Source: Leuconostoc inhae KCTC 3774 (GTDB taxonomy: Bacteria > Bacillota > Bacilli > Lactobacillales > Lactobacillaceae). From it: 36,145 nucleotides of DNA. Under the pieces are notes generated by a model. That model was not told where the DNA came from and ran no database searches. It saw only the letters and a list, made by a program, of their open reading frames with translations. The stretch is taken from NCBI GenBank assembly GCA_000166735.2, contig AEMJ01000005.1, positions 1 to 36,145 of the forward strand, written 5' to 3'. Shown in pieces: positions 8,771 to 19,896 of this stretch. Within the stretch, counting starts at the first letter, position 1; each line of letters begins with the position of its first letter. Made by a program: the position numbers and the translations under genes.

Positions 8771-9668
8771 CAAAAAGAGGCGTTTGGTTCTCTATATGAT
8801 TCTTACAATGGTAACTCTTTTGATTCTAATGTTTTTTTCTGGGATACAACAAGGAAAAGCACGACAAAAAGTAACACAAAAAGTAGATTATTCCTATTTA
8901 AATTTTGCTGAAAAGAACAGCAATGTTAAAGACGGCGTTATCGTACTAGCTTATCATCGTATATTGAAAAATAATGCTACCGTGAGCTTTGCGCAAAAAA
9001 TATCTAAAAATCCACAACTTCAAGAATATAATGTGTCTCAAGACGAATTTATCAGGCAGATGGATTGGTTAAAAAGAATCATATCAGTGTTTGGTCAATG
9101 TCACAATTTATTAAACATACTAAAAATAATACGATTCGTGGTAGACACGTTGTCATTACTTTTGATGATATTGATACAACGTTGCCAAGAAACGCTTCTC
9201 AAAAATTGGCCGAACTGAGTATACCTTTTACTTTTTTGTTATTACTGGTAAAGTTGGGCAAAATTTAGATGGGGAGCAATTGGCTTCTTGGTCAGAAATT
9301 ACGCAGTTAGCGATGAAATCAAATGTTACGGTAGGGCTACATACAAATGATTTACATTACCAAGTAGATAACCACCCTATTTTATCTAGTGGGAAATTAT
9401 CACAAAAAGCAATCATAAAAGACTACCAAAAATCAAAGCAAAAGCTAAAAAAGAATTGTCAATTGATCCAACAGTTTTTGCCTATCCATATGGTAGCTCT
9501 AGTAAATCGTTGACAGAATATATGTCATCGCATGGTATGGCGGCGATATTTCTTTTAGAACCTGGTATTGTGTCTAATAATATGCCAGACATTCTAAAAC
9601 ATGTCCCTAGATTTATCGTTACGAATTCAAATTTTACCGAACTACAAAAATGGCTCGAAGTCAAATAG
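8763..9668 (+). CDS. Poly-GlcNAc de-N-acetylase, PgaB/IcaB type (three frame breaks)
   Basis: About 302 residues when read through three breaks. An N-terminal membrane anchor or signal (residues 13-32) is followed by a polysaccharide deacetylase (NodB) domain. The opening 'GVIVLAYHRIL' is typical of the IcaB/PgaB clade. Metal and catalytic motifs are present: 'VVITFDDID' (motif 1, TFDD), 'HTNDLHY' (motif 2, H-x4-H, the SHTYDLH of PgaB) and 'VFAYPYG' (motif 3). Breaks: the 5-A run 9071-9075, the 6-T run 9232-9237 and the 6-A run 9447-9452, each cured by one added base, giving 'LKKNHISVW', 'FTFFVITGKVG' and 'KKELSIDPTVF'. The enzyme partly deacetylates the extruded polymer, giving it positive charge for surface retention. 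Confidence 0.87.
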
Positions 9669-9725
9669 TAACATGGCATAGAAATTCATTGAAATATAAA
9701 ATTCATCAATTGAAAGGAAAAATGA

Positions 9726-10061
9726 ATGGTGTCTAAAAGAATAGTTCTTTTTCTGCATTTATTAGCTGTTTCAAGTATTTTTTTGATGATGTTAGTGACT
9801 ATTATCGAGATATTAACTGTCAGTAATAATGCTAATAATACTAATTTCTATAAAGTGTTAGCAACAAAACAACGTCGTTTATTGAAAAGCAAGGTAATGA
9901 CCCCCAAAAATAATGCGAAACAAATAGTTATCCAACCAGTAGTATATCAAGTAAACACAGAAAATATGTCACAACAAACGACGTATGTTGATAAAATTAT
10001 TATTAATCCAAAAACAGCAATCCTGTCAAGAGTTACTACCGAGGGGGGTGATCGTTTCTGA
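9726..10061 (+). CDS. Small single-pass membrane protein of the exopolysaccharide operon, unknown
   Basis: 111 residues. A hydrophobic segment at residues about 8-30 ('FLHLLAVSSIFLMMLVTI') is followed by a basic, Asn/Gln-rich extracellular-looking tail. I do not recognise a family. The ribosome site GAAAGGAAAA precedes two overlapping ATGs; the one at 9722 meets a stop after four codons, so 9726 is used. It follows the deacetylase by 57 bases with no terminator and is probably in the same operon. The 6-G run 10040-10045 near the end could hide another length error; with one more G the tail would change to 'VIVSDTC'. A role in polymer export or surface retention is only a guess. Confidence 0.5.
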   Translation: MVSKRIVLFLHLLAVSSIFLMMLVTIIEILTVSNNANNTNFYKVLATKQRRLLKSKVMTPKNNAKQIVIQPVVYQVNTENMSQQTTYVDKIIINPKTAILSRVTTEGGDRF

Positions 10062-10269
10062 CACCTGCTAACATGTGTAATGGTAATGGATAGATCACCT
10101 TTAGTATGGCTAATAATATGCCGTAAAAGTATTGGTTTGACAAATATTTTTATGAGCTCAGGTGAAGACAATCTCTAGATAGCAATAATGAATGATACGT
10201 CATTATCTTATGATAACTTGGGGAAAATGATGAATTAAATTCACGAAATATATTAAAAGGAGAACAAAG

Positions 10270-12194
10270 ATGTTCAAAAAGACAGCAACTTTTTTTAGCT
10301 TATTAATTATTATGAGTACTTTTTTTGTTACACCGGTTTCAGTCTTGGCAGAATCCAACACTGACAATTTGAGTACTGCAATGACTTCTTCTAATGTCAT
10401 ATCAAATTCTGATATTCAACCAGTTGAAAAGTCGACTGAAAAGCAAGAGGCAAGTAAAATGTAGTGGCTGGGTTACCCAAAGTCACGCCGGCAACAGATA
10501 ACACGATTAAAACTGGTAAAATAAAATCAAGTTCAACGCAGCCACGTGCGCCTACTATCACAGCTGGTAAAGATTGGGGAGATCAATTTATTACACATGC
10601 TGAACTAGAAGACGAAAATGGTAAGCCACAAACAAATTTCGACATTTACGATGATATGCAGGCACATTGGGATATGACAGTGCCTGCAGGTACCAATATC
10701 AAAACAGATGACACGATGACAGTGACGGTGCCGAGTGTGTTAACCATGGCTACTGATGTCAAATTCGATATCACCGATGTTGCTGGTAATGTTATTGGGC
10801 ACGCAGTTGCAGATCATAACACTGGTAAAGTCACAATTACATTTACTGATTATGCCGAACAGTCTGCTAAAAATGGTATTAGTGGTAAATTTAATATTTG
10901 GGTTCATTGGGATCATACACAAGTTGAAGAAGATACAACGGTGCCTGTTGATTGGGGCAATGGTGGTTCTACTGATATTGATATTGATCCAGGAAACGAC
11001 GGTCCTGATCCTGATGAAGAGTTGTACAAGTGGGGTTGGTATGATTCAAATGATCCGACAATTATTCATTGGCGGGTGCGTTTGAATTATGCCAAGGTTG
11101 ATATTAAAAACGCTGTTTATACAGATTTTGTTGGTGGGAATCAAAATCTTGTACCAGGATCAATTCAAGCCTATCATGTTGAATACAATAGTGATGGGAC
11201 AGACTTTACGCAATTAAATGACGTGCCCAGTTCTGATATTTTTGAGGATAGTACGTTGAAGTTTCACGTTAATCTACATGAATTAACAGATACAGTCCTT
11301 GTTGACTATGATACAAAGGCCACCGATGGTGGTACATCGACAAAATATGAAAACTCCGGTCAATTAACTGGTGAAAATATTGAGAAGCAAACCATTGATG
11401 TTTATTCACCTGATAATGGTGGTGGTGGTGATGGTGAAACCACCGAAACAATTGACGGTATCAAGACATGGCAAGACGATAATAACATCGAAGGATTACG
11501 TCCTGATGCAATTACTATCGATATTTACCAAAACGGTGTCAAGATCAATTCAAAGATTGTCACTGCCAAATCTGATTGGAAATATTCGATAACAGACTTA
11601 CCAAAGTACGATGCTAACGGTAACGCCTATATTTATACAGTGAAGGAAGAGTCTGTTGATCACTATATGTCTTCTCAATCCGGGTATGATTTTACTAACA
11701 CCCTATCAGATATCACGAAAATTGCTGGGACGAAAACTTGGGATGATCAAAATAACCAAGATGGTAAGCGCCCTGATGCAATAAAGGTAAACCTACTTGC
11801 TAATGGTAAGGGGATACAAACGAAAACGATTACAGCAAATGATGATTGGCAATATCAGTTTACTGACTTGCCAAAGTATGACAACAATGGTAAGAAAATC
11901 AGTTATGCAATTACTGAGGATAAGGTATCTGGTTATGAAACAGAAATAGTTAATTATGATTTGATTAATCATTACACGCCGCACACACCTATTAATCCTG
12001 ATAAACCTATAGATCCTATCATACCAATTACACCAAACAATCCTGTAAATCCTGTAGTGCCATGGCAGCCAAATCATAAGTCAGTTAGTTTGCCAAACAC
12101 TGCTTCGGAAAATATTGCTTGGACTGCTACTTATGGATTTATAATAATTGGTTTAATTACCATAGCTGTATGGCTGCGTCGCAAGGACAATTGA
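10270..12194 (+). CDS. Sortase-anchored Cna-type adhesin, LPNTA motif (one frame break)
   Basis: About 641 residues across one break (the 4-A run 10456-10459; one added A gives 'EASKNVVAGLPKV'). A signal peptide (1-30, ending 'VSVLAES') leads to a collagen-binding-like adhesive region (about 90-370, two beta-rich subdomains: 'GKDWGDQFITHAELEDENG' and 'DPTIIHWRVRLNY'). Two Cna-B repeats follow, each with '(I/T)KTWxDxNNxxGxRPDAI' and 'W.Y..TDLPKYD', then an Asn-Pro/Ile-Pro linker ('NPDKPIDPIIP'). The C-terminus is a cell-wall sorting signal: 'LPNTAS', a membrane helix and 'RRKDN'. The last motif residue is Ala rather than Gly. The ribosome site AAAAGGAGAAC precedes the ATG. It probably mediates binding to matrix or plant/animal surfaces; the ligand is unknown. 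Confidence 0.87.
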
Positions 12195-12645: not shown

Positions 12646-14095
12646 TTATAGTAGTGAACTTTTGTGACTGTATGGCATTTTTGCATGAGCTTTCGAACGT
12701 AAACCAGCTTCTATTGACTCCAACGAGCGATTACGTGTTTCAATTGTAAATTTAGCAATAAACCAAATAGCTACAAAACAAAGAGCGCCATATATTAAGA
12801 ATAATTTAGCAATACCTTTTCCCTCTGAGTTGATAGCATTAGCCGGTGTAAATGCAATAAGCAGCATAGGAAAAGTTTGAGAAACTGCAAAATTTGCTGT
12901 CCAATTAATAACTGCACCAAACGAGTTACCAAGGCCACGAATATTTAATGGGAATGCTTCGCCAATCATGACCCACATAACAGGACCCCATGTAGCTGAG
13001 AAGAATGCAATATACAGCGTCAGAGAAATAACACATACCCATGACCCAAGATTACCATTACCAGCTTGAAGCACTAACATCGCTGTTGACATCAGTAATA
13101 ACGAAATACCCATACCTATTGCACCGTAGGTGAGCATTTTTTTGCGATCAATTTTATCCATTATTTTAACGGCAATAGCTGTCACAATAACATTGAATAA
13201 GCCAATGACAATATGGGATTGGAGCGCAAAATGTTCGCTAAATCCTGCGGATATAAAAATTTTGGGTGCATAATATAATACGGTATTGCATCCCATGACT
13301 TGTTGGAAAATAGCTAAACCCAAAGCCATTATTAGAACTGGGCGCGCCATAACGCCGAATAATTCTTTAAAGCCACCAGATGGAATATTTGCTTGTAATT
13401 GAATATCGTGTAGTTCTTCTTCGACCAATTTCGCATTGGGATTCATTTGCGACAGCACACGTTTAGCGTCATCAATTTTCCGTTGCGCACAAGAAATCGT
13501 GGTGATTCTGGTAATCTGAGACCACCAAAAAACAATAATGCAGCAGGAATTGCAGCCAAACCAAGCATCCAATGCCAACCAACATTTTCTTTAAGTCCTA
13601 AAAATCCGTTAGGTGAAAGCCATTCATTTGAAACATAGGCGAAGAAAATACCTGTCATAATCATTAATTGAAATAGTGTGCCGATACCACCGCGCTTATC
13701 AGCTGGTGATAATTCAGCTAAATATGTAGGAATCAAAGCTGAAGCTGCTCCTACAGCAATACCAAGAATAACACGTGACACGACTAATACAGTGTAATTG
13801 ATTCCTATACCAGATCCTAATGCACCTGTAAAAAATATTATTGCGGCAATTAGTAAAAGTTTTTACGTCCTAATTTATCAGATAGTGGGCCTATAACGGC
13901 AGCACCAATTATGGCACCAAGAAGCACAGATGCTGTAATAAAGCCATCTTGAAAGGAACCTGATTTAATACCTAATTCCTTTCCTATAAAAAGCATAGCA
14001 CCTGATATGACGCCTGTATCGTATCCAAACAACAGTCCACCAAGGGCACCGAAAAAATAGACAAAATTTGTTGATAAATGTCTTGTGTGATTCAT
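12646..14095 (-). CDS. MFS sugar porter (sugar:H+ symporter; two frame breaks)
   Basis: About 483 residues across two breaks, the usual length of the sugar porter family (XylE, AraE, GalP). Signature motifs occur in order: 'GYDTGVISGA', 'GPLSDKLGRK', 'LPESPRFLVRNGK' after helix 6, 'VMWVMIGEAFPLNIRG' and the terminal 'ETRNRSLESIE'. Breaks are at the T run 13860-13864 (restoring 'GRKKLLLIAAII') and the T run 13476-13479 (restoring 'NGKIDDAKRVLSQM'); each needs one extra base. The start at 14095 has an AGGAG site. The sugar cannot be fixed from sequence; pentoses or hexoses are both possible. It has its own promoter with a cre-like operator and its own terminator. Confidence 0.9.
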
Positions 14096-14124
14096 ATTGT
14101 TGTCTCCTAAGTATCCATTTATTT

Positions 14125-14173
14125 TGTAAACGTTTACATTAGTGATTATATCTCTGTTAGTTGTTAAAAGCAA
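14125..14173 (-). promoter_or_regulatory. Sugar porter promoter with cre/LacI-type operator
   Basis: On the minus strand: -35 TTGCTT (14168-14173), 17-base spacer, -10 TATAAT (14145-14150). The perfect palindrome TGTAAACGTTTACA (14125-14138) lies just downstream of the -10, covering the start of transcription. This is the classic roadblock position for CcpA or another LacI-family repressor. The core GTAAACGTTTAC is the same as in the glucosidase promoter at 23.5 kb. Confidence 0.85.
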
Positions 14174-14525: not shown

Positions 14526-15566
14526 TTGGAAGTTAAATTTAATCACGTGACTTTGACTTATCCAAATGGCATCGAAGTGTTGCATGATATGGATTTTGAT
14601 ATCAATGATGGCCAACTCGTTGCACTTTTGGGACCCTCTGGTGGTGGTAAATCTACCACATTGAATCTGATTTCTGGATTATTATCAGCGACAACTGGTA
14701 ATATTTACTTTGGAGACAAAGATGTGACAAAACAAGACGCTTTAGAGCGCGGCGTTGGCATGGTATTTCAAAATTACGCATTGTACCCACACATGACAGT
14801 ATTGGATAACATTATTTTCCCGATGAAAATGGCAAAAATTGATAAGGCAACACGGAAGCAGCGTGCTTTAGATCTTGCTAAATTAGTTCGAGTTGATGAT
14901 CAAATCGCCAAAAAACCAAGTGATTTATCTGGTGGTCAGCAACAACGTGTAGCCATTGCCCGCGCTTTAGCAAAATCACCTAATATTTTGCTTTTGGATG
15001 AACCCTTATCTAATCTTGATGCGCGTTTACGTGTGGAAATGCGTGAAGAAATTCGTCGTATTCAAAAAGAAACCGGTGTGACAACAATTTTTGTTACTCA
15101 TGATCAAAGTGAAGCCATGCATGTTGCTGATAAAATAATGGTGCTTAATGATGGTCGTATTCAACAATATGATGAACCACAATCATTATATGAAAATCCA
15201 AGTAATCAATTTGTTGCTAATTTCATTGGTGAACCAGCACTCAACGTCATATCGGCGCGCCAACTTGGTCCGGGAGTGACGCAATTGTTTGATGGGGAGG
15301 TCGCGACTATTGGTATTCGTGCTGAAGCACTGACAAATGAAGTCAAAGAACCTGCAATTAAAATGCAAGCGATTGTTCATGAAGTTTTGTCATTTGGACG
15401 TGATCATCAAGCAACTATATCTGTTGGTGAAAACCAATTAATTGCGACTGATGTGACTACAACAGCGTTAATTAATCAAGAAATGACACTTTTTGCAGCG
15501 TTAAGTGGGGTTTATGCCTTTGACAAAGAAGGTCAGAGGCTCCCGCTACGGGGTGAACGCACATGA
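14526..15566 (+). CDS. ugpC: ABC importer ATP-binding protein, UgpC/MsmK type
   Basis: 346 residues, intact. Walker A 'GPSGGGKST', Q-loop 'VFQNYALYPHMTV', signature 'LSGGQQQR', Walker B 'ILLLDEPLSNLDA' and H-loop 'FVTHDQ' identify the ATPase. The C-terminal OB-like regulatory domain (about 235-346) places it in the carbohydrate-uptake (CUT1, MalK/MsmK/UgpC) group, though it is about 15-25 residues shorter than many members. The start is TTG at 14526, since no in-frame ATG is near and homology begins here; GAGAGAAG is the probable ribosome site. It overlaps the first permease gene by four bases. It drives import by the permeases that follow. Confidence 0.9.
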   Translation: MEVKFNHVTLTYPNGIEVLHDMDFDINDGQLVALLGPSGGGKSTTLNLISGLLSATTGNIYFGDKDVTKQDALERGVGMVFQNYALYPHMTVLDNIIFPMKMAKIDKATRKQRALDLAKLVRVDDQIAKKPSDLSGGQQQRVAIARALAKSPNILLLDEPLSNLDARLRVEMREEIRRIQKETGVTTIFVTHDQSEAMHVADKIMVLNDGRIQQYDEPQSLYENPSNQFVANFIGEPALNVISARQLGPGVTQLFDGEVATIGIRAEALTNEVKEPAIKMQAIVHEVLSFGRDHQATISVGENQLIATDVTTTALINQEMTLFAALSGVYAFDKEGQRLPLRGERT

Positions 15567-16458
15567 TGCGCAATCAGAAGACGACTTGGAAACAGACGTT
15601 AAAAGGTTGGTTGTATGTTTTACCAATGTTAATCATCGTGTCAGTTTTTAGCTTGTATCCGATTATTTCAAGTTTAGCCATGAGTTTTTATACGCAGTAT
15701 AACTTTTTTACCAATCAAGTAATGGCGCTTGGGTTTGATAACTTTAAATATTTGTGGGAAGATCCGTTGTTTCATGCTGCTGTGTCCAATACATTAATCT
15801 TTGTGATTGGCGTTGTCCCTTTGGAAATCGTTATTTCTTTAACAGTGGCTGTCTTGTTGAACCAAATTAAATTGTTTGCTGGTTTTTTTCGAACGATTTA
15901 TTTTTTACCATTTGTGACTAGCATCGTTGCCATTTCAATGGTTTGGAAGTGGATTTATAACAAAGATGCAGGGTTGTTGAACTACTTTTTAAGCTTTGTT
16001 GGTATTCATCCAATTGATTGGCTAAATGACCCTAATTGGGCATTACCAGCGCTAATTATTCTTGCCATTTGGAAAAGTCTAGGATTTAATATCATGTTAT
16101 TCCTGGTTGCCTTAAACAATGTTGATAAACGTCTATATCGTGCGGCGACTTTAGACGGTGCTAGTATATGGCAACGCTTTTGGCATATCACGGTACCAAT
16201 GATTAGTCCAATGACATTTTTGATTACGATTAATGCAGTCATTGGATCATTTAAAGTGTTTGATGAGATTTTTCTTTATTTGGTGGGCAAGCAGGTCCTG
16301 GTAATGCAGCGATGACAGTTGTTTTCTATCTTTACCGAATGTTTTACGAACAAAACAAGTACGGTATTGCCGCAGCGGCTGGTGTTGTATTGTTTGTCAT
16401 GATTTTAATTGTGACATTATTGCAAATGTGGTTTAGCAAAAAGCATGTGCATTACTAA
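15563..16458 (+). CDS. ugpA: ABC importer permease, UgpA type (one frame break)
   Basis: About 298 residues across one break, six membrane helices. The ATPase-docking EAA loop is 'YRAATLDGASIWQRFWHITV' (about residues 193-212). The break is at the T run 16269-16273; one T added gives 'DEIFSLFGGQAGPGNAAMTV' and then 'FYLYRMFYEQNKYGIAAAAG', the normal CUT1 ending. As literally read it stops at 16315. It overlaps ugpC by four bases, showing tight operon coupling. Confidence 0.88.
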
Positions 16459-16470
16459 AAGGAGTTGACG

Positions 16471-17291
16471 ATGAAAAAATCATATCAAACACAATCGTTT
16501 ATTTGCTGTTAGTAGTTGGTGCTTTGACAATGCTGTTGCCATTCTTTTGGATGGTGTTAACGTCATTTAAAACTGGATTTGAAGCGTTACAGGTGCCACC
16601 AACATGGCTACCGAAAAAACTACAGGTTACAAATTGGATTTCTGCCTGGAAAGCAGCACCATTTGCGACGTATCTACTAAATTCGGTGATTGTATCGTTT
16701 ATGACGACAATTGGTCAAATCATTACAGCAATTATGGCAGCTTTTGCATTTGCCAAAATGAATTTTCACGGTAAAAAAATACTTTTCACAATCTTACTAG
16801 CGACCATGATGGTGCCGGGAGAAATGTTGATCATCCCTAACTTTGTGACCTTATCACAGTTACATATTGTCAACACATATGGCGCTTTGATTTTGCCATG
16901 GTTAGCCAGTTTCTTTGCAGTCTTTACCCTACGTCAGTCATTTGCAAGCGTACCTGATCAGTTGTATTACGCTGCCAAACTTGACGGTGCTTCGGATTGG
17001 AAATTTTTATGGCAAATTTTGGTGCCTAATGCTAAATCATCGATTACCGCCATTGGTCTTCTACAAATTATTGGTTCATGGAATTCATTCATGTGGCCAT
17101 TAATTGTAACTAATACAGATAAAATGAGGACGTTACCGGTTGGTTTGCAAGCATTTAGTTCTGATTCGGGTGTTAATTATCCTGAATTGATGGCAGCATC
17201 GACTTTTGTCATTTTGCCAATGGTAATTTTATATCTGTTCTTAAACAAGTATGTTGTTGCTGGTATTTCTGGTGGGGGAATCAAGGGTTAA
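16471..17291 (+). CDS. ugpE: ABC importer permease, UgpE type (one frame break at the start)
   Basis: About 274 residues. ATG 16471 follows AAAGGAGTTGACG, but the 6-A run 16474-16479 is one base short, so the literal frame stops after 13 codons. One added A gives 'MKKIISNTIVYLLLVVGALT', joining the long frame. The rest shows six helices and the EAA loop 'YYAAKLDGASDWKFLWQIL', the second permease of CUT1 importers. Typical family C-terminus. It pairs with the preceding permease. Confidence 0.88.
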
Positions 17292-17403
17292 TTTACTGTC
17301 CACATTTTGTGGGTGGTAAAAAGATGTCATGTTTAATAACGTCTTTTTACTGCTTATAAAAGCAGCTAAATTTTTTTGGGAACACGAAAGGAAATATGTA
17401 CAC

Positions 17404-18702
17404 ATGAGTACTGGGAAGAAATTCGCAGCTTTGGCTGCTATTACAATTATGGCAGGTTCATCTTTTGCTGGCTTGTCAGCAGTTCACACACCAACAGTAA
17501 GTGCCAATACTGTTGCCAGTAAGCCAGTAAAAGTAACGTTCTGGCACGCCATGGCTGGCCCTTATAAAGACGCGTTGCAAAAGCGTATTGATGCTTTCAA
17601 TAAATCACAAAGTAAATATGAGATTGTTGCCACTGCTCAAGGTGATTATACGACTTTGAACCAAAAAATTATGGCTGGTGCTAAGTCTAAAACATTGCCT
17701 GTTATGGCCCAAACAATTTACACACAGGTACCTGACTACGTTAAAGATGGCATTGTAACATCACTTCAACCTCAAGTTGATGGTAAAAATGGTTTGTCAA
17801 AGAAACAATTAAACAATATTTATCCAGGTTTCTTGCAACAATCAAAATATAAAGGTGAGTTCTACTCAGCACCTTTTTCAGCATCAGTGCGTGAAATGTT
17901 TTATAACAAAACACTGTTGAAGAAGTATAGCCTTTCAGTACCAAAAACTTGGGATGAAACTGCTAAAATGTCTGAAGTTTTGAAGAAAGATGGTATTGCC
18001 ACTGTTGGCTTTGATAAGTCATTTGATATGGAGTGGAACTCAATGGCTCGCTCAGCAGGTGTATCATTGGTGACGAATAAAAACAAGGTCAATGTTGATT
18101 CCAAAAAAGCTGTTGCAGCAGCTAAATTGATTACAGACATGGTTTCTGATGGCACTGCCAAAACAGCCGGTTCTGATATCTATGGCACCACAAATTTTGT
18201 TAATGGTAAAATAGCCTTGACATTCTCATCATCTGCCGGTATTACAGCAACGAAAGCTGCAGCTGCCAAAGACTTTGACTGGGGCACGGCACCACTTCCT
18301 TCATACAAAGGTAAGTCAGCAACAGTTTTGGCTGGTAACAGCTTAGTGGTGACTGCAACGGCAACAAAGAATCAGCAAGCTGGTGCATGGGCCTTCATGA
18401 AATATCTAATGTCTGACAAGCAAACTGAAAAGTGGGCGGAATCGACAGGTTATTTGCCAATTACTAAAAAAGCAACCAAGTCAGCCGCTTATAAAGCCTA
18501 TTTGAAAAAGAATCCACTTGCTCAAGCTGCTTCAGATTCATTGCCAGGTGCATTCTCAGATACCGCTTTCTTAGGTTACCAAGATTATCATACAAACTTA
18601 TTAAATGCCGTTGATTCAATGTTAACGAAGAAAACACCAGCGTCAGATGCGTTGAAAACATTGTCTGATCAAACAAAGAAGACTTTGAAAGAGAACGAAT
18701 AA
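17404..18702 (+). CDS. ugpB: ABC importer substrate-binding protein, UgpB-like
   Basis: About 432 residues, intact. After the signal region it reads 'VKVTFWHAMAGPYKDALQKR', then 'FNKSQSKYEIV', 'YSAPFSASVREMFYNK' and 'PKTWDET', close to the pattern of UgpB, which binds sn-glycerol-3-phosphate and glycerophosphodiesters. Other CUT1 sugars remain possible. ATG 17404 sits about 10 bases after GAAAGGAAA. The N-terminus has a basic start and a hydrophobic core but no lipobox cysteine; the likely cleavage is near 'TVSAN'. That is odd for a Gram-positive ABC binding protein, normally a lipoprotein. Its TAA shares a base with the ATG of the following hydrolase. Confidence 0.82.
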   Translation: MSTGKKFAALAAITIMAGSSFAGLSAVHTPTVSANTVASKPVKVTFWHAMAGPYKDALQKRIDAFNKSQSKYEIVATAQGDYTTLNQKIMAGAKSKTLPVMAQTIYTQVPDYVKDGIVTSLQPQVDGKNGLSKKQLNNIYPGFLQQSKYKGEFYSAPFSASVREMFYNKTLLKKYSLSVPKTWDETAKMSEVLKKDGIATVGFDKSFDMEWNSMARSAGVSLVTNKNKVNVDSKKAVAAAKLITDMVSDGTAKTAGSDIYGTTNFVNGKIALTFSSSAGITATKAAAAKDFDWGTAPLPSYKGKSATVLAGNSLVVTATATKNQQAGAWAFMKYLMSDKQTEKWAESTGYLPITKKATKSAAYKAYLKKNPLAQAASDSLPGAFSDTAFLGYQDYHTNLLNAVDSMLTKKTPASDALKTLSDQTKKTLKENE

Positions 18703-19896
18703 TGCGTATGCAAGTAAAATTCTTAAATGGACTCAATACAATCGGGGGGAATGTTGTATCATTTACGCAGGGAAAAACAAGGCTTGTGATGGATTTTGGT
18801 GTCAATTTTGCACCATCTGAAACACCTACAGGGGATTTATTAGCCAATGGCACACTACCAGATTTACCTGATTTATTTACTGATGTGAGTAGTGAATATG
18901 AGACAACAATATTTGTCTCACATTTACACTTAGATCATATGGGCGCTTTGAAATATTTAACAAAGCCTATCGATGTTTACATGAGTCAAGCATCTGCTGA
19001 TTTATACTATGTTTTAACAAAATTAGGGATCGAATCTGCGCCTTACGCAAATATTAAAGTCATTGATTTTGAAAAACCCACTAGTTTTGGTGACTTTGAG
19101 GTGACTTTCTTTGAAACAGATCATGATGCACGTGGTGCAGCAGCTATTCGTATACGAAACGGGGAGCATACAGTCGTTCATAGTGGCGACGTACGATTAG
19201 ATGGTCCGCATCCAGAACGTGTAAATCATTGGGCAGATGTTTTACGTGACGAAAACATTGATTTGTTGTTACTAGAAGGCACTGAATTTAGTTTTGATGA
19301 AGCAAACGATATTGCACATGAGCGCTATACAGAAATGTCATTGCAACAAAATTTTGCTCAAATATTACAGAGCTCAGAACAATTGGTTGTGATCAACCCC
19401 TATGAACGTAATATTGATCGTTTAGTAGCTTTGCAAGCAACTGTACAAGCTAATGGACGTGAAATGCGTTGGGATCATCAATTTGCTACAATCCTGCTTG
19501 CGGTGGGGATGACCGATGTCAAAGAGATTGATTGGGAGACTGTTTTAGCTCAGCCAGGTCACTATGTGATTCAAAATCATTTTAATCAGTTACATGATTT
19601 GGATCAGTTTAATGGCGATTATGTTTACTTGCATATGAACGGCGAACCACTTGGTGAATATGATCCACGTTTTGCTGAACTAAGTGATTACTTAACTAAC
19701 AATGATGTGCTATTTTGCAGTCTGGGGGTCAGTGGACACGCTACGCCAGATGATTTAGTGGCTTTGGCACAACACATTAGTGCCAAAAAAAACAGTGACA
19801 TGGCATTCATTCAAGCCAGAAAAAGAGGCGAAAGCTTTGCGAGAAGTTGGATTGAATGTTTATTTACCAACTAAAGGTGAAACTTTGAACTATTAG
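18702..19896 (+). CDS. Metallo-beta-lactamase-fold hydrolase, beta-CASP/RNase J-like (one frame break)
   Basis: About 397 residues. The metal site is clear: 'SHLHLDHMGA' (HxHxDH, about residues 67-76), 'TDHDARG' and 'HSGDVRLDG'. A beta-CASP-like ending is present, with 'VSGHATPDDL' and, after repair, 'TVTWHSFKPE'. It resembles RNase J but is much shorter than the usual 550 or so residues. The break is in the 8-A run 19785-19792: removing one A gives 'AKKTVTWHSFKPEKEAKALR' and the stop at 19894-19896; as literally read it ends at 19874. It is coupled to the binding-protein gene and followed by a terminator, so it is the last gene of the importer operon. It could be a nuclease or a phosphodiesterase acting on the imported compound; unproven. 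Confidence 0.75.

Follow-up and report, generated by a model that had tools for sequence, protein, structure and literature searches.

A short beta-CASP metallo-hydrolase encoded beside a UgpB-type importer in Leuconostoc inhae probably takes the place of the phosphodiesterase UgpQ

The closest described system is the E. coli ugpBAECQ operon, in which a CUT1-type importer is likewise encoded together with a phosphodiesterase gene. The phosphodiesterase, UgpQ, is a cytosolic GDPD enzyme, whereas the corresponding slot of the locus described here is occupied by a beta-CASP metallo-hydrolase. On the enzyme side, RNase J shares the MBL/beta-CASP core, the HxHxDH motif, and the SGHA motif with this hydrolase, but RNase J carries a C-terminal domain and is about 550 aa long or longer, whereas the hydrolase homologues are mostly about 400–475 aa. 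Enterococcus faecalis EF2904 (PDB 2az4) has both family and fold in common with the hydrolase and is named a hypothetical beta-CASP protein in PMC3095777. Judging from its number and description, EF2903 is probably the binding protein encoded next to EF2904, and the accessible portions of the E. faecalis surface-protein and lipoprotein surveys that list EF2903 give no ligand for it. A precedent for MBL enzymes in small-molecule roles is provided by the UlaG-like metallo-hydrolases, which are likened to the hydrolase by description and not by sequence; according to PMC3219644, they have a common origin with RNA-processing enzymes and act on phosphorylated sugars and nucleotides. For the binding protein, PMC12718374 describes UgpB relatives that grip the phosphate by two Tyr and two Ser residues and hold the glycerol by Glu, Gly, Arg, and two Trp residues; one member of their branch binds glycerophosphocholine and another the UpG dinucleotide. 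The nearest solved sequence is the Thermus thermophilus U3G (UpG dinucleotide)-binding protein (PDB 7c0f–7c1b series), the entry titles of which name the dinucleotide.

The window, i.e. the whole 36,145-nucleotide stretch of Leuconostoc inhae KCTC 3774 DNA that was analyzed, contains an importer operon that ends with the hydrolase gene:

14526–19896, + strand: five-gene run ugpC-ugpA-ugpE-ugpB-hydrolase
14526–15566, + strand: ugpC-like ABC ATPase (NCBIfam PRK11650, UgpC, 4e-100, under its cut-off)
15563–16315, + strand: ugpA-like permease, 3' end frame-disrupted (PRK10561, UgpA, 9.8e-27; one-base gap versus locus L023)
16503–17291, + strand: ugpE-like permease (PRK10973, UgpE, 2.7e-41)
17329–18702, + strand: ugpB-like binding protein (phosphate quartet present, glycerol-clamp Trp missing)
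18702–19896, + strand: short MBL/beta-CASP hydrolase of the EF2904 family (table-11 ORF to 19874; family C-terminus to 19896 in a shifted frame)
19785–19792, + strand: A8 run, the frame-shift point relative to intact genus homologues

The top NCBIfam matches of the importer were UgpB, UgpA, UgpE, and UgpC, with the binding protein scoring 107.4 bits against the UgpB equivalog model, below its 411-bit cut-off. The original prediction that the hydrolase start overlaps the binding-protein stop was borne out, as the ugpB stop codon and the hydrolase ATG at 18702 have the A of TAATG in common. By coordinates, the overlap is identical in L023, L024, and L025, and the two genes abut in L026. Under table 11, the hydrolase ORF (18702–19874, +) encodes 390 aa. 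Four intact homologues from the genus are 397 aa long and from the A8 run continue in the other frame, to the stop at 19894–19896, in agreement with the end at 19896 that had been proposed earlier for the gene. The table-11 frame meets the wrong stop, and the WHSFKPE motif with its invariant last His is then lost. This frame break at the A8 run is probably an assembly indel error. Assembly error is the simplest cause because ugpA is also shortened by a single-base difference, in this case relative to the 93.5%-identical L023; alternatively, both frame breaks may reflect real decay. The source assembly comprises 893 contigs and is 89% complete. A second single-base difference from L023 is located near the ugpA/ugpE junction (15563–16503, +). 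Upstream of the operon, a gene that is sugar-porter-like by translation is broken into three ORFs (12646–14173, −), which is a further sign of indel errors in the contig or of decay. In the genus sample, one genome (G014) has the operon in decayed form, and another (G007) retains a hydrolase remnant.

The best match of the hydrolase among solved sequences was EF2904 (4e-32), followed by RNase J chains, which bears out its earlier description as RNase J-like. The NCBIfam RNase J models scored far under their cut-offs (59.2 versus 820 bits and 49.6 versus 400 bits), and Lactamase_B models were the only ones among the Pfam matches listed for the window ORF at E values up to 0.1. The source genome also has two longer RNase J-like genes, so the window hydrolase is a third, short relative. 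The metal-binding set (HxHxDH, a later His, Asp, and a final His) is invariant in 9/9 and 42/42 homologues; in the window, the final His is encoded in the shifted frame. By inspection the protein has no signal peptide, which points to a cytosolic location. The structural model, made for the intact homologue from Weissella confusa, has a pLDDT of 95.4 and matches 2az4 with a Z-score of 45.1 (rmsd 2.1, 383 residues aligned) and RNase J with Z-scores of 30–35 across about 370–386 residues, with the beta-CASP insert present. All 50 fold matches listed were beta-CASP proteins and, except for 2az4, their titles refer to RNA-processing or related nucleases. The nine aligned homologues are 397–438 aa long, and those in the wider set are mostly 399–475 aa, along with two long ORFs (489 and 513) and two fragments. 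Compared with eight RNase J-like proteins, the hydrolase family lacks the C-terminal domain, has a shortened insert, contains a Glu residue at the motif-A column, and is distinguished by an H-x-N-G-E-P-L-G motif. The serine of the RNase J Ala-Ser-Asn motif is part of the 5'-phosphate pocket, and its position is occupied by Arg in 33 of 42 members of the hydrolase family. A search of viral contigs returned no relative.

The conservation of the gene pairing was analyzed in two samples. A profile built from the nine-sequence alignment was scanned against genome contigs, and the surroundings of the best 80 of 179 relatives were searched for importer genes (7 kb upstream and 4 kb downstream). Importer genes lie near the hydrolase gene, mostly directly adjoining it, in 75 of these 80 loci, which span Lactobacillaceae, Enterococcus, Carnobacteriaceae, Bacillaceae, Paenibacillus, Clostridium, and Actinomycetota. 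The arrangement of the genes is not fixed. Weissella-, Lacticaseibacillus-, and Bacillus-type loci have C-A-E-B-MBL, Lactobacillus and Enterococcus loci have C-A-E-MBL-B, and most Actinomycetota have A-B-E-MBL. The EF2904-type gene precedes ugpB in the Enterococcus loci examined, whereas the hydrolase gene follows ugpB in the window. Among the five exceptions in the best 80, L035 and L062 begin close to a contig end, and the available DNA of L041, L045, and L076 contains no importer; two of these, L045 and L076, are also near a contig end. The second sample, independent of the contig scan, consisted of 348 genomes of the class, 27 of which were hydrolase-positive. Linkage to the importer was found in 22 of the 27. 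By coordinates, the hydrolase is on the same strand as the binding-protein gene and at most 0.9 kb from it in 11 genomes; in nine it is divergent, at about 2 kb, with permeases filling the gap in the three cases inspected (arrangement MBL / A-E-B). Two more genomes, G242 and G355, were added as linked after reading of the remaining loci. The unlinked genomes are G064, G083, G115, G231, and G381. In G031, hydrolase and importer are both present on different contigs, and the reduced genome G033 (87% complete) carries ugpCAEB without the hydrolase (L119:4764–8853, +), with ugpB split over two ORFs. The coupling to the importer that had been suggested from this single locus is therefore strongly supported by both samples, and homologues are not mostly found away from such importers. 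CorA and similar neighbors in Lactobacillus were considered as parts of the module and rejected, as they were seen in no other lineage.

The identity of the gene that occupies the hydrolase position in hydrolase-less systems is informative about function. The GDPD gene of E. coli, ugpQ, lies inside the ugp operon. In the class sample, 44 genomes contain the binding protein at E values up to 1e-90, and 20 of them lack the hydrolase. In 19 of these 20 genomes (10 of the 20 belong to one genus), the binding-protein gene has a GDPD-family gene at a distance of 200 bp or less; the exception is G148, in which neither GDPD nor hydrolase adjoins the binding protein. Adjacent GDPD genes were found in none of the 22 hydrolase-linked systems (the 15 tested first and the other seven). 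The survey covered the 22 linked, three unlinked, and 20 hydrolase-negative genomes, plus G064. For 19/20 versus 0/15, Fisher's test by genome gave 5e-9, and counting by genus (9/10 versus 0/12, again for the first 15 linked systems) gave p = 2e-5; relatedness is not taken into account in either value. Five genomes (G118, G166, G087, G132, and G145) contain both kinds as paralogous systems. The beta-CASP hydrolase thus stands where sister importers that lack it have a known phosphodiesterase, GDPD. Given its presence in the slot of this unrelated enzyme, its substrate is probably an imported molecule with a phosphate linkage.

The binding proteins of the two kinds of systems differ in the predicted pocket. 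Pocket counts were made on 85 hydrolase-linked rows (72 at under 95% identity) and 13 GDPD-linked rows, with L156 confirmed among the latter and three wrong-frame longest-ORF rows (GD_L143, MB_L162, and MB_L170) omitted. The Tyr/Ser/Ser/Tyr phosphate quartet is present in 85/85 hydrolase-linked proteins (the second Ser being replaced by Thr in 29 of them) and 13/13 GDPD-linked proteins. It was rejected as an operon signature because it also occurs in 6/7 of the nearest binding proteins outside the family, and it therefore marks the UgpB branch. Relative to E. coli UgpB, the hydrolase-linked proteins lack the clamp Trp, and most lack the Glu: Trp at the E. coli W195 column is found in 0/85 hydrolase-linked versus 13/13 GDPD-linked proteins, and Glu at columns 88–90 (the E89 column or beside it) in 9/85 versus 13/13. 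Trp elsewhere in columns 190–197 occurs in 5/85 hydrolase-linked proteins, and the W195 region is aligned with some doubt because most of these proteins were gapped at this column in an earlier alignment. Arg at the Arg397 column was uninformative as a discriminator, being present in 31/85 hydrolase-linked and 0/13 GDPD-linked proteins. In a 90-row tree, from which the three wrong-frame rows, the distant control C_L141, and 16 near-duplicate loci were left out, the hydrolase-linked proteins form one side of a branch with support of 99/95, and L085 is a long branch at the edge of this group. The solved sequence nearest to the window UgpB is the T. thermophilus UpG-bound protein (2e-35, 28% identity, the highest identity among the structure matches listed), and E. 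coli UgpB scored 1.2e-21. Structural comparison could not be used as a pointer to the dinucleotide protein, which shared a Z-score of about 44 with a cyclic-maltoside binder and with the UgpB proteins of M. tuberculosis and E. coli. In a hand-read alignment, several positions mutated in the UpG-protein entries have another residue in the window protein (Ile for F79, Thr for N81, Ala for Y246, and Ala for Q274), and a shared ligand should therefore not be presumed.

The reading that we prefer, with a probability of about 70%, is that the module imports a phosphodiester other than the simple glycerophosphodiesters and that the cytosolic short beta-CASP enzyme in the UgpQ slot cuts it. The UgpB-branch binding protein would capture an organic phosphodiester, UgpA, UgpE, and UgpC would import it, and the metallo-hydrolase would hydrolyze it in the cytosol, filling both the role and the slot of the unrelated GDPD enzyme; where a linked phosphomonoesterase is present, it would then remove the phosphate. 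Both the reaction and the departure from simple glycerophosphodiesters are what we infer from gene context, fold, and pocket residues. The original prediction had placed an imported phosphodiester at the center of the system, and by analogy this part is well supported by the exchange with the UgpQ family; as to the diester itself, its two examples, a teichoic and a nucleotide fragment, are both candidates, as is a glycerophospho-sugar fragment. Our tentative first choice of ligand is a short nucleotide fragment, and a sugar- or polyol-phosphodiester, including teichoic fragments, is a possible second choice. In a more specific version, which we put forward with considerable reservation, di- or short oligoribonucleotides would be bound and imported intact, degraded to nucleoside monophosphates by the hydrolase acting as a miniature RNase J, and dephosphorylated by a cytosolic nucleotidase; according to PMC4652760, RNase J frees nucleoside monophosphates from 5' ends. 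The preferred reading has to accommodate the unlinked loci L041, L045, and L076, the five unlinked genomes of 27 in the class sample, and the exceptions G033 and G148.

An unlikely alternative is that the function is the same as that of UgpQ, with ordinary glycerophosphodiesters (GPC, GPG, or teichoic glycerol-phosphate pieces) as substrates and the beta-CASP enzyme as a non-orthologous replacement that yields glycerol-3-phosphate. The position of the hydrolase in the GDPD slot and the UgpB/A/E/C matches of the importer would fit this scheme, but the clamp Trp is missing from all 85 hydrolase-linked proteins, and five genomes keep a separate GDPD-linked system. The neighboring phosphatases also bear on the question. 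A CpdB/5'-nucleotidase-like gene adjoins or is near 20 of the 80 operons (best 80 of 179 relatives), and a signal peptide was not evident in the two examples read. In L049 and L097, which are one strain, the CpdB-like gene and the hydrolase gene are on opposite strands and about 6 kb apart. HAD hydrolases are encoded beside 7/10 Actinomycetota loci and L061 and, in the class sample, close to the hydrolase at several loci. The occurrence of phosphomonoesterases from unrelated families next to one kind of module fits a path from diester to monoester to product. It also speaks against a product that is just glycerol-3-phosphate, for which these phosphatases would be unnecessary. With a CpdB/5'-nucleotidase-like gene near only 20/80 operons, a phosphatase was rejected as a constant part of the module; when selected neighbors were scanned against Pfam, no linked phosphatase was recognized in most loci, including the window.

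It is still less probable that a sugar importer is linked only by co-expression to a true ribonuclease or regulator acting on cellular RNA, for example the mRNA of its own operon. The listed fold matches, all beta-CASP and mostly with RNA-processing or related nuclease titles, would be in line with this explanation, and so would the RpiR and GntR/UTRA regulators and sugar enzymes near some loci; however, the hydrolase swaps with a small-molecule diesterase, it has a shortened insert and no RNase J C-terminal domain, and two longer RNase J-like genes are already present in the genome. Genes for RpiR, GntR/UTRA, ROK, and PGI-like proteins and for sugar enzymes occur near a few loci, which keeps a sugar- or polyol-phosphate substrate in play. 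That an RNase J paralogue lies next to the importer by chance, or that the two are associated in position only, is very improbable: despite the 5/27 unlinked genomes, this explanation is contradicted by the 75/80 linkage (best 80 of 179) and the GDPD swap, by linkage in two phyla with differing gene orders, by the joint decay of operon and hydrolase in G014, and by the single group formed by the hydrolase-linked binding proteins.

In a literature search that left preprints and most subscription papers outside its reach, no description of the hydrolase–importer pairing was found, nor any paper with both beta-CASP and UgpB; among the matches listed, none had both UgpB and 'MBL fold'. The preferred reading, i.e. 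cleavage of an imported phosphodiester in the UgpQ slot, would give a concrete role to a family with a structure, 2az4, that the PDB has listed since 2005 without a known function. An RNase-type fold apparently replaces a small-molecule phosphodiesterase. The module would also point to an unrecognized source of nutrients or phosphorus in lactobacilli and enterococci. With a nucleotide fragment as ligand, it would constitute an uptake-and-digestion pathway of a kind absent from the literature found.

Several individual loci have additional neighbors. In L126 (3179–8323), the genes beside the hydrolase encode a HAD hydrolase and proteins of the PGI-domain and ROK types, and the DNA read there contains no importer. 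In Lapidilactobacillus, a methionine gamma-lyase family gene is located between ugpB and the hydrolase in L044 (8561–9817) and near the unlinked hydrolase in L029, L041, and L045. A hydrolase remnant lies directly 5' of a CpdB/5'-nucleotidase-like gene in G040. At L033 (7967–9989, −), the remnant preceding such a gene is C-terminal, and the importer is absent from the 20 kb read. In L127, an inositol-monophosphatase family gene (9368–10276, −) separates the hydrolase from a divergent GntR/UTRA regulator and the importer, and it is a possible clue to the ligand.
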